From the NCBI GenBank assembly GCA_905215145.1, contig CAJMOW010000086.1, positions 1-6,102 of the forward strand: 6,102 nt of DNA. Direction: 5' to 3'. Each line of letters opens with the position of its first letter. Positions within the stretch are counted from its first letter, which is position 1. Position numbers and translations under genes: made by a program. Origin of the DNA: an uncultured bacterium (GTDB taxonomy: Bacteria > Bacillota_I > Bacilli_A > RF39 > UBA660). This document shows positions 816-6,102 of the stretch, one piece after another. Under the pieces are notes generated by a model, which worked only from the letters and a program-made list of their open reading frames with translations, ran no database searches and had not been told where the DNA came from.

Positions 816-842
816 AAAAGGTGGGGATAATCCTCACCTTTT
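816..842 (-). terminator. Terminator of the nrd operon
   Basis: Arms AAAAGGTGGGGA (816-827) and TCCTCACCTTTT (831-842) surround a 3-base loop, with one non-canonical pair (G/T as plus-strand RNA, A/C as minus-strand RNA). On the minus strand the stem ends in a short T-run (819-816). It lies at the very end of nrdG: the stop codon (843-841) overlaps the first bases of the stem. No plus-strand gene precedes it, so its role is to end the leftward nrd transcript. Confidence 0.75.
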
Positions 843-1404
843 AAACAAACACATAACTACTTTCATGATCTAAAATATTATAATCATTTTGTTCATAATA
901 TTTTTCTACTAAGCAAACTTTATTTTGAATTAATGAATTTTTAACATCAATAATTCTTTGATTAGAAGAACCTCTAAATATTAAATCAAGGTTTCTTTCT
1001 TCTAAAATAAATTTTCCATCTATTAATACATCTATGTTATTTAAGAATTCTAAAATAGCTGGTTTCAATTTAGAAAGTGCTAAAAGTTGTTCAAATGTAT
1101 AACCAGTATAACACCAAATATTTAAACCAATTTTCTTAGCAAATTTTGCTATTTCTAAACATTCTTTAGGTTGGCACATAGGATCACCTCCCGAGAATGT
1201 AATACCATCTTGATTTTTTAATTTAGAAACTTTTTGTTTTATTTCTTCTATATCTATTAACGCACCATCATTAAAATCATGAGTATCTGGATTATGACAT
1301 CCTTTACAGTTATGTGGACATCCTTGTGTCCAAATAACTGTTCTAATACCTTCTCCATCAACTATGCTATCTTGTTGTAAATCTGCTGCTAATCTAATTT
1401 TCAT
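841..1404 (-). CDS. nrdG: Anaerobic ribonucleoside-triphosphate reductase activating protein (radical SAM)
   Basis: The 187-aa protein is a NrdG-type radical SAM enzyme. It should use a [4Fe-4S] cluster and S-adenosylmethionine to make the glycyl radical on the class III ribonucleotide reductase, in the cytoplasm under anaerobic conditions. The CX3CX2C cluster motif is CPHNCKGC (C29, C33, C36), just after the family sequence DGEGIRTVIWTQGC. SGGDP (71-75) is the glycine-rich SAM-binding motif, and VLIDGKF (126-132) and FRGSSNQRIIDV (143-154) are typical NrdG segments. ATG 1404 is preferred over the in-frame TTG at 1413, because protein starts in this family begin close to this point and because the upstream stop and this start form TAATATG with one base between, which suggests coupled translation. 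There is no strong ribosome site of its own. It is the last gene of the operon, and its partner here is the two-part reductase upstream. Confidence 0.95.
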   Translation of the reverse strand: MKIRLAADLQQDSIVDGEGIRTVIWTQGCPHNCKGCHNPDTHDFNDGALIDIEEIKQKVSKLKNQDGITFSGGDPMCQPKECLEIAKFAKKIGLNIWCYTGYTFEQLLALSKLKPAILEFLNNIDVLIDGKFILEERNLDLIFRGSSNQRIIDVKNSLIQNKVCLVEKYYEQNDYNILDHESSYVFV

Positions 1405-1405
1405 A

Positions 1406-1576
1406 TTATGCAACTTCTTTTTCTTTTTTCATTAATTCTTTTATACCAGTATGTTTAACACGATCATGTTCTTCTGCTCTTTTACCATTGTTAAAACGTT
1501 TAACATCACCTGCTAAATAACCAGTAACTCTTCTTATTCTTTCAAAACCAACGCCTTCGCCTACTATTTTTTCCAT
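1406..1576 (-). CDS. Stand-alone glycyl radical domain of class III ribonucleotide reductase (split NrdD, C-terminal piece)
   Basis: This 56-aa protein matches the C-terminal glycyl radical segment that normally ends NrdD: FERIRRVTGYL, then RFNNGKRAEEHDRVKH. G19 in RVTGYL is the expected radical glycine, which NrdG would activate. The rest of NrdD is the gene just upstream, whose ORF stops 29 bases before this one, in another frame. The start at 1576 is supported by AGGGAG (1590-1585) 8 bases before the ATG; an in-frame TTG at 1594 would overlap that site. A TAA in this frame at 1603-1601 lies downstream of the stop of the large ORF (1608-1606), so a single base error cannot fuse the two. The protein would have to insert its loop into the barrel of the large subunit, much as GrcA (YfiD) replaces the damaged end of pyruvate formate-lyase. 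Identity of the domain is clear from sequence; function as a separate subunit is inference. Confidence 0.85.
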   Translation of the reverse strand: MEKIVGEGVGFERIRRVTGYLAGDVKRFNNGKRAEEHDRVKHTGIKELMKKEKEVA

Positions 1577-1584
1577 TTTAATAT

Positions 1585-1590
1585 CTCCCT
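1585..1590 (-). promoter_or_regulatory. Ribosome binding site of the glycyl radical ORF
   Basis: AGGGAG on the minus strand followed by 8 bases and the ATG at 1576. It lies in the 29-base gap between the two nrdD pieces and is the main sign that the small ORF is translated on its own. Confidence 0.75.
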
Positions 1591-1605
1591 TCAATTTATA
1601 TTAAT

Positions 1606-3906
1606 TTATTTTTGTATTTTTTCTAGTGGAATACTTTCAAATTCCCTTCTTCCACAACATGGGCAAACATCACCAATTACGCCAACATATCCACATACTG
1701 GATCTCTATCAACAGGGTGATTTATTGCACCATAACCAATTCCAGATTCTTTCATAAGTCTTATAACACTTTCAAACGCTTCCAAATTTGAAGCAGTATT
1801 TCCATCTAATTCGATATAAGAAATATGACCGCCATTTGTTAAATAATGGTATGGAGCTTCTTTTTTTATTTTATCTGAAATACTTATATTGTAATAAACA
1901 GGAATATGGAAAGAGTTTGTATAATATGCTCTATCTGTTACTCCTTTAATTCTTCCATATAATGCTTTATCAATTCCAACAAATCTTCCAGATAAGCCTT
2001 CTGCTGGAGTAGCAATTAAAGTAAAGTTCAAATTATATTTTCTTGAATATTCATCAGTTTTATTTCTCATAAAATTAATTATTTCAAGACCTAATTCTTG
2101 TGCTTCTTCACTTTCACCATGATGACTTCCAATAAGAGCTTTTAAAGTTTCTGCTAAACCTATGAAACCAATTGTTAAACTGCCATGTTTTAAAATTTTT
2201 CTAAGTCTATCAGTTGGTTTTAATTTATCACCATCTGTCCATACTCCTTGTTCTAATAAAAATGGGAAATTATAACATCTTTTATTACATTGGATTTCAA
2301 ATCTTTCTAGCAATTGATCTTTTACTAAATCCATTACATCAGATAGTTCTTGATAGAAAGCTTCCATATCTGCTTTTTCTCTTTCTTTTAAACAAATACC
2401 ATGTTTAATACCAATTCTTGGTAAATTTATGGAAGTAAATGATAAATTTCCACGACCACCTGTTGTTTCGTTATCAGGATCAGTAACATCACTCATTACT
2501 CTAGTACGACATCCCATATATCCAACTTCAGTTCTAAAATCACCTTCTTTATAGAATGGTAAATTATGTGGTGCATCCAAAAATGAGAAGTTAGGAAATA
2601 ATCTTTTTGCAGATACTTTGATTGCTAATTTAAATAAATCATAGTTTTTATCTTCTTTGTTATAGTTAACTCCCTCTTTCACTTTAAATATAGATACTGG
2701 GAATATAGGAGTTTCTCCTTTTCCAAGCCCTTGTTCAGTTGCAAGTAAGAAGTTTTTTATGACCATTCTTCCTTCTGTAGATGTATCCGTTCCAAAATTT
2801 ATTGAAGAAAATGGAACTTGAGCTCCTGCTCTTGAATGCATTGTATTTAAATTGTGTATAAATGCTTCCATTGCTTGATATGTAATTCTATCAGTTTTTT
2901 GTAAAGCTTTTTCATAACTTTTTCTAAAAAGTCTTTCGATTGCTTTAGATTCTTTATAATAGTTTTTAAACATTTCTATATCTAAATCAATTGAATTAAT
3001 TTTATCTACATCTTTTACTATTTTATCTATATTTACAAAGCTAAGTAAATCACTGTAATCTAGTAAATCATAAATTTGTTGTTTCAATTGCTTTTTAAAT
3101 GTTTTTAACACACCAGGTGCCATATAATAATCAAATGCTGGAATTGATTGTCCACCGTGTTGATCATTTTGATCTGATTGAATTGCTATAGCAGCAAGTG
3201 CACTATAAGACATAATATCATTAGGGCTTCTCAAATGACCATGTCCTGTTGAAAAACCATTTTTAAATAATCTATCAAGTTCTATTTGCATACAAGTAGT
3301 AGTTCCCATTGGTAAGAAATCCATATCATGAATATGAATTGTTCCATTATCATGAGCTTCAGCAAATTTATGTTTCATTAAATAAGATTTAGCAAATTCT
3401 TTTGAAATTGTACTACCATATTGAAGCATTGTTCCCATTGCAGTATCCCCATCAACATTTGCATTTTCTCTTTTAGCATCTTCTTCTTTCGCTGATTTTA
3501 ATCCAAGGCCTTCTATTGATTTTAAAAACTTATGTGTTTTCTTTTCATCAAAGAAAAGTTTTCTAGAATTAGCTCTTCTTTCTCTATATTGTGAAAATGA
3601 ATCATATACATCTTCATATCCTTTTTTTTGAAGAACATCTTCAATCATATCTTGAATAGTTTCAATTTTAATTTTTTCTGAATCCTTATATTCTTTTTCG
3701 ATTCTACCTACAACAGCTTGATATACTTTTTGGATATCTTTTTCAGTATATTTTTTTTCTTTTGATTCTGATAATTCTTCATCAACCTCAACACTATCAA
3801 ATCCTTTTTTAATAGCAAGAGCAATTTTTGAACCATCAAAGTCAACTTTTTTTCCATCCCTTTTTACTACCTTAATATTAAGTGTAATATCATCTACATT
3901 AGTCAT
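1606..3906 (-). CDS. nrdD: Anaerobic ribonucleoside-triphosphate reductase, large subunit lacking the glycyl radical segment
   Basis: The 766-aa protein reduces ribonucleotides to deoxyribonucleotides for DNA synthesis without oxygen. An N-terminal ATP cone (about 10-105; KVVKRDGKKVDFDGSKI) gives allosteric control. The catalytic barrel follows, with IHIHDMDFLPMGTTTCMQI (C205, likely active-site cysteine), NTMHSRAGAQVPFSSINFGTDTS (354-376) and VGYMGCRTRVM (C466, expected thiyl cysteine). Near the end PVCGYVGVIGDVCPCCGR supplies zinc-site cysteines C738, C748, C750 and C751. The family normally continues into FxRIxRVTGYL, but here the ORF ends at K766 after ESIPLEKIQK; that segment is the next ORF. 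ATG 3906 is chosen because AGGAGG (3919-3914) lies 7 bases upstream; the open frame extends further but starts upstream would include the promoter. It is the first gene of a three-gene operon with the glycyl radical ORF and nrdG. Identification is certain; how it works without an attached radical site is inferred. Confidence 0.95.
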   Translation of the reverse strand: MTNVDDITLNIKVVKRDGKKVDFDGSKIALAIKKGFDSVEVDEELSESKEKKYTEKDIQKVYQAVVGRIEKEYKDSEKIKIETIQDMIEDVLQKKGYEDVYDSFSQYRERRANSRKLFFDEKKTHKFLKSIEGLGLKSAKEEDAKRENANVDGDTAMGTMLQYGSTISKEFAKSYLMKHKFAEAHDNGTIHIHDMDFLPMGTTTCMQIELDRLFKNGFSTGHGHLRSPNDIMSYSALAAIAIQSDQNDQHGGQSIPAFDYYMAPGVLKTFKKQLKQQIYDLLDYSDLLSFVNIDKIVKDVDKINSIDLDIEMFKNYYKESKAIERLFRKSYEKALQKTDRITYQAMEAFIHNLNTMHSRAGAQVPFSSINFGTDTSTEGRMVIKNFLLATEQGLGKGETPIFPVSIFKVKEGVNYNKEDKNYDLFKLAIKVSAKRLFPNFSFLDAPHNLPFYKEGDFRTEVGYMGCRTRVMSDVTDPDNETTGGRGNLSFTSINLPRIGIKHGICLKEREKADMEAFYQELSDVMDLVKDQLLERFEIQCNKRCYNFPFLLEQGVWTDGDKLKPTDRLRKILKHGSLTIGFIGLAETLKALIGSHHGESEEAQELGLEIINFMRNKTDEYSRKYNLNFTLIATPAEGLSGRFVGIDKALYGRIKGVTDRAYYTNSFHIPVYYNISISDKIKKEAPYHYLTNGGHISYIELDGNTASNLEAFESVIRLMKESGIGYGAINHPVDRDPVCGYVGVIGDVCPCCGRREFESIPLEKIQK

Positions 3907-3913
3907 ATAACTT

Positions 3914-3919
3914 CCTCCT
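3914..3919 (-). promoter_or_regulatory. Ribosome binding site of nrdD
   Basis: A perfect AGGAGG on the minus strand, 7 bases before the ATG at 3906. It fixes the start of the large subunit and rejects upstream in-frame starts. Confidence 0.9.
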
Positions 3920-4715: not shown

Positions 4716-6102
4716 TTAATTTTTATTAACTCTTTTTTTTCGTTCAGAATAAATAGCATATCCAAGCAATGCTATAGAAAGCATACTAACACACATTCCT
4801 GATGTAAAACCTCTAGGAATATATTCAAATTCTATAGTATGTTCACCACTATCTAATGTAAGGCCAATAAATGTATCCATAATAACATCATATTCTACTT
4901 TTCTACCATCAATATATATATTCCATCCATTATCTACTGGAATTGAAGTATATAAAATTTGATTTGAGTCGCTTACATTTATTTTACCTTTAATATAATT
5001 TGTTTTAAATTCTTCCATTTTAAATGAATCATTTGAATTAAGAAGATTTATTTTTTCTTTAAACTCTGTTTCATTAAATGTACTAAATACATAATCAGTT
5101 ATTTTTAAATCATCCTCTAGTAAAATTATTTCTAACGATACTTTATCGCCTTTTTTATAATTACCAAGTTCCAAAATATTATATCTATAACTATTTTCTT
5201 CTTCCGTATCTATTATACTTTCACCATTTAATAATATATCTACTTTTTTATTATAATCAGATGATATATATGCATATAATAATCCGTCATATTCTACATT
5301 TATATCGAAAGTAATAGATGCATCTTTATTTAAATTAACTTTTTTATATTCTTTATATTTTGTTACTTTTTCATTTTGTTTAACATTATTTAAAGTTATA
5401 TTAAAGTTATTATTTTCAAATACATTTTTATTTGTATTAGTCATAGTATTTAATATCAAATTTTGATTATTAAAAGGTTCTAACTTATTTAACTTCATAT
5501 CTAGTACATTACCATCAACCATAAACATAAATGGTAAATAATTATTATTTTTATATAAATTAATATTATTTTCTGTTTTTAATAATTGATAATAAGGTAA
5601 CTTTCTTTTTGAAAGTACATATTTTATATTAAATAAACTATTTGTAACTGGTGTAGAACCTAAATAATTTGTTATATAAAATCTATTAAATATTCCTAGG
5701 TAGTCACCTAACAATTTATTATTTTTTGATTCATATGTAGAACTAAAATGTGATATTCCATTATAATTTAATAACATTGGATCATTTGTTGAATAATTAG
5801 TTTCACTTTCTAATCTATAAAAACTAGAATCATCTTTTTTTATAAAATTTATTATTTCACTATAATTATTTACAAAATCAACATATTCATTTCTTGAAAA
5901 ATATTTAATATTTACAACAACTAATAAACTATTTATAAACATTTCTATTACTACTAGTATAATTATAAAAATATTCAAGTTTTTATTTTTTCTATAATAA
6001 AAATATAAAGAATAAATTAATAACAATACAAAAGTTCCAATTATTTTATAAAATGATTGTTGTGTATAAACAAATTTATCAACAGCTATAGTTATGATAA
6101 AT
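4716..6102 (-). CDS. YfhO-family membrane protein, C-terminal part (5' end outside the window)
   Basis: The visible 461 residues are the C-terminal half of a YfhO-type protein; the frame stays open to the right edge, so the true start lies beyond 6102 and a TTG at 6026 is not a credible start. Two membrane segments near the left of the fragment (about residues 16-35 and 41-65) are followed by a long extracytoplasmic region with the family sequences DPMLLNYNGISHFSSTYES and LFNIKYVLSKRKLP, then a beta-rich domain. Near the end DNGWNIYIDGRKVEYDVI and SGEHTIEFEYIPRGFTSG are typical of YfhO, followed by a last membrane segment (about 435-452) and a lysine/arginine-rich tail that should face the cytoplasm. 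Full-length members have around 850 residues. In Bacillus subtilis and Listeria, relatives take part in glycosylating lipoteichoic acid at the outer membrane face. The exact sugar or polymer here cannot be told. Family assignment is firm, role is inferred. Confidence 0.88.
   Translation of the reverse strand, partial: FIITIAVDKFVYTQQSFYKIIGTFVLLLIYSLYFYYRKNKNLNIFIIILVVIEMFINSLLVVVNIKYFSRNEYVDFVNNYSEIINFIKKDDSSFYRLESETNYSTNDPMLLNYNGISHFSSTYESKNNKLLGDYLGIFNRFYITNYLGSTPVTNSLFNIKYVLSKRKLPYYQLLKTENNINLYKNNNYLPFMFMVDGNVLDMKLNKLEPFNNQNLILNTMTNTNKNVFENNNFNITLNNVKQNEKVTKYKEYKKVNLNKDASITFDINVEYDGLLYAYISSDYNKKVDILLNGESIIDTEEENSYRYNILELGNYKKGDKVSLEIILLEDDLKITDYVFSTFNETEFKEKINLLNSNDSFKMEEFKTNYIKGKINVSDSNQILYTSIPVDNGWNIYIDGRKVEYDVIMDTFIGLTLDSGEHTIEFEYIPRGFTSGMCVSMLSIALLGYAIYSERKKRVNKN

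Follow-up and report, generated by a model that had tools for sequence, protein, structure and literature searches.

Ribonucleotide reductase is an essential enzyme, the class III form of which is destroyed by oxygen through cleavage of the polypeptide at the radical glycine. The subject of this analysis is a class III locus in a stretch of 6,102 nucleotides (nt), referred to here as the window (contig CAJMOW010000086.1 of assembly GCA_905215145.1), from an uncultured bacterium of the GTDB lineage Bacillota_I; Bacilli_A; RF39; UBA660, in which the enzyme NrdD is divided between a large subunit and a protein of 56 amino acids (aa) that carries the radical glycine. Class III enzymes are described as having a C-terminal radical domain (PMC9669993; PMC9531940).

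GrcA (YfiD) and Y06I of phage T4 are small proteins that copy the radical C-terminus of a glycyl radical enzyme and have a repeated segment, as is found here, but they serve pyruvate formate-lyase, which belongs to a different enzyme family (PMC8683613). YfiD/GrcA repeats a strand that is kept by its cleaved partner, which could no longer be rescued once that part had been removed from it; according to Andorfer and others only two spare parts have been validated, both for pyruvate formate-lyase, and further ones are possible (PMC8683613). The split class II enzyme NrdJa/NrdJb of Pseudomonas aeruginosa, described as unique among free-living organisms, also has two obligatory polypeptides in one ribonucleotide reductase, but it is a B12 enzyme whose small part mediates dithiol exchange and bears no radical (PMC4520616). 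Phage nrdD genes can likewise lie in pieces, mostly because of inserted introns or homing endonucleases, with that of phiAS4 unexplained (PMC3653736), whereas the present locus has no insert, is broken at the radical domain and is conserved across an order. No account of an NrdD whose radical site resides on another polypeptide was found in open-licence papers, a search that may miss subscription papers, and passages of PMC11528403, PMC12288474, PMC4390871 and PMC3019208 contain nothing on a split NrdD.

The locus resembles the fused NrdD of Prevotella copri, phage T4 and S. thermophilus in its ATP-cone, barrel, zinc cysteines, radical loop sequence and adjoining NrdG, but differs in having the radical glycine on a separate protein and a repeated segment at the break. 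Like GrcA/YfiD, the small subunit is a short, separate polypeptide that bears a glycyl radical domain. GrcA, however, is a spare for an intact enzyme, whereas no glycine motif is present in the large subunit of the window or in any other of the 85 split loci described below; a small protein beside an enzyme with its own glycine is found in the stand-alone proteins of other Bacilli. Insertion of an intron, intein or homing endonuclease is out, as the gap between the large stop and the small ATG is 29 nt in the window and 1–59 nt (median 19) across the 85 split loci, and no Rfam match over cut-off was found in the window.

A probable class III enzyme encoded by two genes

The locus very probably encodes a working two-protein class III ribonucleotide reductase, because its anatomy, its conservation, the selection acting on it, its order with nrdG and the frequent lack of any other detected ribonucleotide reductase all point to one. 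Genes for a 766-aa NrdD, the 56-aa protein and nrdG form a tightly packed row on the minus strand of the window, which has a G+C content of 24.7 % (Table 1). Both the barrel and the ATP-cone of NrdD are present in the large protein, which matched Pfam PF13597 with 625 bits over profile positions 1–533 of 562, PF03477, the NCBI anaerobic ribonucleoside triphosphate reductase model NF005497 (1004.9 bits) and PDB 8p23 (E 2.1e-171). Its CGx..CPxC pattern, a putative zinc site, is the same as that in fused relatives of the same type, and the first of the four P. copri zinc cysteines is replaced by aspartate here and in most of those relatives.

The radical loop is located not on the polypeptide that carries the barrel but on the small protein, which matched PF13597 (NRDD) at positions 533–562 of 562 (30.1 bits), contains RVTGYL and DRVKH, and can be aligned along 34 residues to the C-terminal end of P. 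copri NrdD, TGYL radical loop included. NRDD was its sole Pfam match at E 0.001, with no pyruvate formate-lyase domain detected, and the radical Gly19 is invariant across 39 aligned small-subunit sequences. One NRDD family is divided between the two window proteins and no piece is missing. A preliminary description of this DNA, made from the sequence alone, had reported that the large open reading frame (ORF) ends after the zinc cysteines, that RVTGYL and DRVKH lie on a separate 56-aa ORF with an AGGGAG site, and that no single indel could fuse the two; all of its coordinates hold, and the stops in both frames were confirmed.

Table 1. Positions of the features of the split nrdD locus in the window
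Feature	Position	Strand	Remarks
Large subunit, NrdD without radical site, 766 aa	1606..3906	-	ATP-cone residues 11–112; NRDD match 147–756
Ribosome site AGGAGG, large subunit	3914..3919	-	Read from sequence
Zinc-site cysteines CGYVGVIGDVCPCCG, residues 738–752	1651..1695	-	Final conserved element of large subunit
C-terminal tail ESIPLEKIQK of large subunit	1609..1638	-	Degenerate copy of small-subunit EGVGFERIRR
Stop TAA of large subunit, after ...DPVCGYVGVIGDVCPCCGRREFESIPLEKIQK	1606..1608	-	Read from sequence
Stop TAA in small-subunit frame, upstream of small start	1601..1603	-	Read from sequence
Ribosome site AGGGAG, small subunit	1585..1590	-	Read from sequence
Small subunit, 56 aa, glycyl radical protein MEKIVGEGVGFERIRRVTGYLAGDVKRFNNGKRAEEHDRVKH...	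1406..1576	-	ATG 1576–1574; PF13597 match; 39-sequence alignment
Segment EGVGFERIRR of small subunit, repeats large tail	1529..1558	-	Tail/segment comparison
Radical glycine codon, Gly19 of small subunit	1520..1522	-	Aligned to radical loop of PDB 8p23
nrdG, radical SAM activase	841..1404	-	ATG 1404–1402; one base after small-subunit stop; TIGR02491 158.4 bits, cut-off 126.1

Conservation of the split among relatives

Related NrdD loci were taken from a genome collection (the best 80 of 563 relatives) and scored for the zinc motif and the radical motif. The split occurred at the same place in 76 of these 80 loci, which puts the split in the window beyond chance. A sample of 60 genomes from the order of the window supplied further loci, giving totals of 85 split pairs (window included), nine fused loci and 17 of other NrdD types; these last 17, of 110 loci, were left out of the split counts. 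Among the 85 split pairs, the small gene is distributed over the three frames relative to the large gene (32/27/26), always starts with ATG and follows a large-subunit stop that is TAA in 46, TAG in 38 and TGA in one. A ribosome site precedes the small gene in 83 of 85, as compared to 12.4 % of random positions, a count that is biased upward by a preference for in-frame ATGs with a site; without that preference, the figure for a nearby ATG was 75 of 77. A radical SAM ORF comes next after the small gene in all 85 pairs. The nine fused loci belong to the same bacterial order as the split ones.

The split was also present on a contig of 1.26 Mb (L009). For the core of the small protein (32 codons) the ratio of nonsynonymous to synonymous polymorphism (pN/pS) was 0.24 over 1825 non-independent pairs, with changes mostly at third positions; by this measure, the small core is under purifying selection. 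The preliminary description had judged that the split looks real, that the ribosome site and the coupling to nrdG look maintained, and had suggested looking for the split in related genomes. These judgements are borne out by the 76 loci, the independent frames, the ribosome sites, the purifying selection and the unvarying radical SAM neighbour, and as far as the sequence tests reach, the split is functional.

Searches at E 0.001 yielded 2498 short relatives of the small subunit, a number that may include contig-end fragments. In an even sample of the class, short-type small frames (55–81 aa) were found in 12 of 296 genomes, all 12 in the order sampled. Bacteria with the split enzyme are many and include animal gut species. 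Where databases name relatives of the small subunit, they are listed as hypothetical, apart from one 'anti-sigma factor'. The small subunits of L023 and L030 are longer (84 and 83 aa) and have a C-terminal extension resembling a degenerate repeat of the DRVKH end. The genomes of L125–L130, all with a fused NrdD, have open frames for NrdD and NrdG if TGA codes for tryptophan (translation table 4).

No class I or class II ribonucleotide reductase model was matched in any of 30 split genomes, while the same search was positive in 11 of 14 control genomes. The split pair was the only ribonucleotide reductase detected in 22 of the 30. Incomplete assemblies may contribute, but 22 such gaps are hard to explain in this way.

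Elsewhere in the window, a gene at 81–641, downstream of nrdG, encodes a helix-turn-helix regulator with a longer C-terminal part, for which RstR/Cro type matches fell below the NCBI cut-off, and 4716–6101 encodes a YfhO-type membrane protein, of which only the C-terminal part lies inside the window. A promoter and terminator scan of the operon gave sites no more numerous than in shuffled sequences and was not used.

Origin of the split and the repeated segment

A phylogenetic tree was reconstructed from 91 large subunits after removal of the part behind CPxC, using 42 of 82 split rows (every second one omitted; three of the 85, with starts placed too late, had been omitted earlier). All 42 split rows fell in one group, while most fused sequences from this order branched off at the base. 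Two changes were needed for the 42 split rows, and a single split clade was not rejected (approximately unbiased test, p-AU 0.396; 64 rows, with the outgroup thinned too).

The large-subunit tail behind CPxCG resembles the start of the small subunit; in L024, for example, the large tail reads RKEGEGVPIERIREI and the small protein KKVGEGVKFERIRRI. Over the 85 loci the mean best score of this repeat was 23.96, as compared to 14.15 for shuffled tails (standard deviation of 20 shuffle means 0.32), with a score of 20 in the window. The best match was in the same register in 76 of 85 loci and in another register in nine. As one segment is present twice, the break is not a simple cut. The repeat is suggestive of an origin in which the 3' end was partially duplicated and the large copy then lost its glycine loop. 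It parallels the repeat in YfiD, and the resemblance is striking, yet it is only a parallel.

Of the 85 large tails, 68 contain two or more cysteines (CxC, CC). A reductant shuttle formed by such a pair at the C-terminus was considered but is not essential, as the window tail has no cysteines.

Stand-alone radical proteins

Stand-alone radical proteins of about 90–110 aa, in which the same C-terminus is joined to a distinct N-terminal domain, were identified in 14 of 296 genomes of the class and 14 of 392 of the phylum, in total 18 distinct genomes (loci L111–L124 and L224–L227). Sixteen of these 18 also have a same-type fused NrdD that retains the glycine loop (open frames of 419–807 aa); the two exceptions are G093, described below, and G141, in which no other NrdD was found. 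In five of the 18 genomes (L120–L124), a gene for desulfoferrodoxin (superoxide reductase) immediately precedes the stand-alone gene or overlaps it, with the desulfoferrodoxin family confirmed for L122 and assigned by sequence likeness for the other four. The stand-alone copies and their adjacency to superoxide reductase suggest that a free radical subunit has some use. Among the 43 genomes of one family, the stand-alone protein was present in 20 of the 24 with the NrdD type whose terminal part it copies, as against one of the 19 others; these genomes are related, and the NrdD types were assigned from the match span by eye.

There is no dedicated Pfam or NCBIfam model for the stand-alone protein, and several of these proteins carry the name of the whole enzyme in databases. 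The N-terminal domain was modelled as beta-alpha-beta-beta with a predicted local distance difference test score (pLDDT) of about 80 and had no match among solved structures at E <0.1. Splicing-endonuclease and ribosome-hibernation folds were the best matches (E 0.1–0.3) and were not taken as evidence. The stand-alone protein is a candidate spare part for NrdD and, by its occurrence beside fused enzymes, would be a closer analogue of GrcA than is the split small subunit.

Absence of the radical loop in one genus, in phages and in Clostridia

In a genus of nine genomes, seven have a fused NrdD, while the main NrdD of the other two, G093 and G547, lacks the radical loop. The main NrdD of G093 (L234) ends HGLERIPRINLESE, nrdG begins two bases behind it, and the free radical protein is encoded 1.38 Mb away on the contig. 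In G547 (L247) the radical site reads TNYL, with asparagine for glycine, and the chain ends soon after; no free radical protein was found in this draft genome. All nine genomes keep an additional NrdD paralogue, so relaxed selection is an alternative explanation for the loss of the loop.

On phage contigs L195–L198 a radical-less NrdD is accompanied by a small gene 1.7–2.1 kb further on, and on L204, L206, L207, L209 and L210 by a radical frame of 87–114 aa that lies 0–750 nt behind. NrdD is fused in the phage relatives L200–L203, L205, L211 and L213. No small radical gene was found by motif in L199, and no clear one in the records of L176 and L181. Locus L182 has a split NrdD followed by nrdG, and the radical loop is absent from all 120 listed relatives (P0241–P0360; of 7999 scored) of its large subunit, a comparison of large subunits only. 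Eight of these 120 carry an organism name, belonging to Oscillospiraceae, Lachnospiraceae and Candidatus Faecousia, all Clostridia. Several groups have thus seen such splits arise or spread. In Eggerthella phage EL753P1 (L214; OP172808.1) the annotated nrdD has no radical loop, and the small radical frame downstream is broken between FERIRRI and TGYL.

Proposed mechanism

In the proposed enzyme, the large protein would supply the ATP-cone, the catalytic barrel and the zinc site, and the 56-aa protein the radical glycine. NrdG would place the radical on the small protein in trans, with the small subunit either bound or free, and the small-protein loop would then enter the barrel of the large subunit as the glycyl radical domain of an ordinary NrdD does, where the docked loop would start thiyl chemistry. 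Lacking a glycine motif itself, the large subunit should depend on the small protein. The radical of P. copri NrdD is at Gly711, in a domain (residues 676–739) that is mobile and, with dATP bound, disordered and gone from the density (PMC11226230), and activation by NrdG requires the radical domain to be flipped out of the core (PMC12662201). As this domain must leave and enter in any case, it is a good candidate for a free subunit. More tentatively, oxygen would cut the small subunit and a fresh copy would be exchanged in, sparing the 766-aa subunit.

Alternative explanations

Readthrough or frameshifting could join both ORFs in the cell to give an ordinary NrdD, and it is true that 27 of 85 pairs share a frame and that 14 of 24 listed same-frame pairs are separated by a single stop. 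The remaining ten of the 24 have two to four stops, however, while the three frames are about equally common, the gaps vary in length, a ribosome site marks the small ATG in nearly all pairs and RNA folding across the junction in the window is unremarkable (z 0.10). This explanation was rejected on frames, gaps, stops, ribosome sites and lack of RNA structure, and is regarded as very improbable. Even less credence, close to none, is given to a decaying gene or an assembly error: the relatives do come mostly from assembled metagenomes, but the conserved split, which extends to a contig of over a megabase, the purifying selection and the status as sole detected enzyme in most of the split genomes led to its rejection.

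A weightier alternative, with a little less than an even chance of being right, is that the split is selectively neutral, the two proteins forming a permanent heterodimer equivalent to fused NrdD that was fixed by chance after a duplication and involves no exchange. Gene order and spacing hold both genes together with nrdG, as fits a fixed stoichiometry, and the fused relatives come from the same bacterial order as the split ones. Neutrality is harder to reconcile with stand-alone copies that coexist with fused NrdD of the same type and in some genomes follow superoxide reductase, or with the four phage contigs on which the small gene is remote from the large. The other possibility, raised in the preliminary description, may be correct but falls short of being probable: the small subunit would be expendable, cut by oxygen and then substituted by a fresh copy on the retained large subunit, in the manner of GrcA (YfiD) with pyruvate formate-lyase. 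GrcA repeats a strand retained by the cut enzyme (PMC8683613), and here the large tail and the small N-terminus share a segment; superoxide reductase adjoins the stand-alone version in the five genomes mentioned. Three of those five are close kin by their NrdD (L157, L160, L162), however, and the window itself holds no pointer to oxygen.

Several observations weigh against the two-protein enzyme as proposed. The preliminary description had held that a continuous NrdD frame in close relatives, or another full-length nrdD in the genome beside a decaying copy, would refute its reading of the split. Such a frame is absent from the 76 split loci but present in four of the 80 (L040, L054, L055 and L069), with fused L069 nested within the split clade. 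Likewise, 22 of the 30 split genomes had no other NrdD match but eight had another NrdD, and a second full-length nrdD may exist elsewhere in the genome from which the window comes. The genomes are mostly metagenome assemblies, and the selection estimate and locus counts are uncorrected for relatedness. In S. thermophilus NrdD the place of the radical domain is independent of the effector (PMC12662201), so mobility is not general. When the subunits of L004 were modelled as one tethered read-through chain with AlphaFold2, the barrel was good, but residues 731–742, 761–807 and 814–832 had pLDDT <50; with most of the tail and small subunit in this range, the model shows no docking. For the nesting of L069, re-fusion, transfer or a second split event are the options.

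Implications

Taken further, it is conceivable, if not the likelier outcome, that the glycyl radical of NrdD became an exchangeable protein cofactor, with a spare copy arising first and the enzyme then losing its own loop, as in G093 and G547, so that the free subunit became obligatory, a course repeated in Bacilli, Clostridia and phages. If this is true, a single small subunit, once activated, may act for several large ones, of host or phage. An obligatory radical subunit of 56 aa would by itself mean that the cut piece could be replaced for some 7 % of the combined length (56 of 822 residues). The split enzyme would also be a natural heteromer in which NrdG activation, docking and radical transfer are separable for study. 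Together, the split and stand-alone systems make the question of spare parts directly testable beyond pyruvate formate-lyase.

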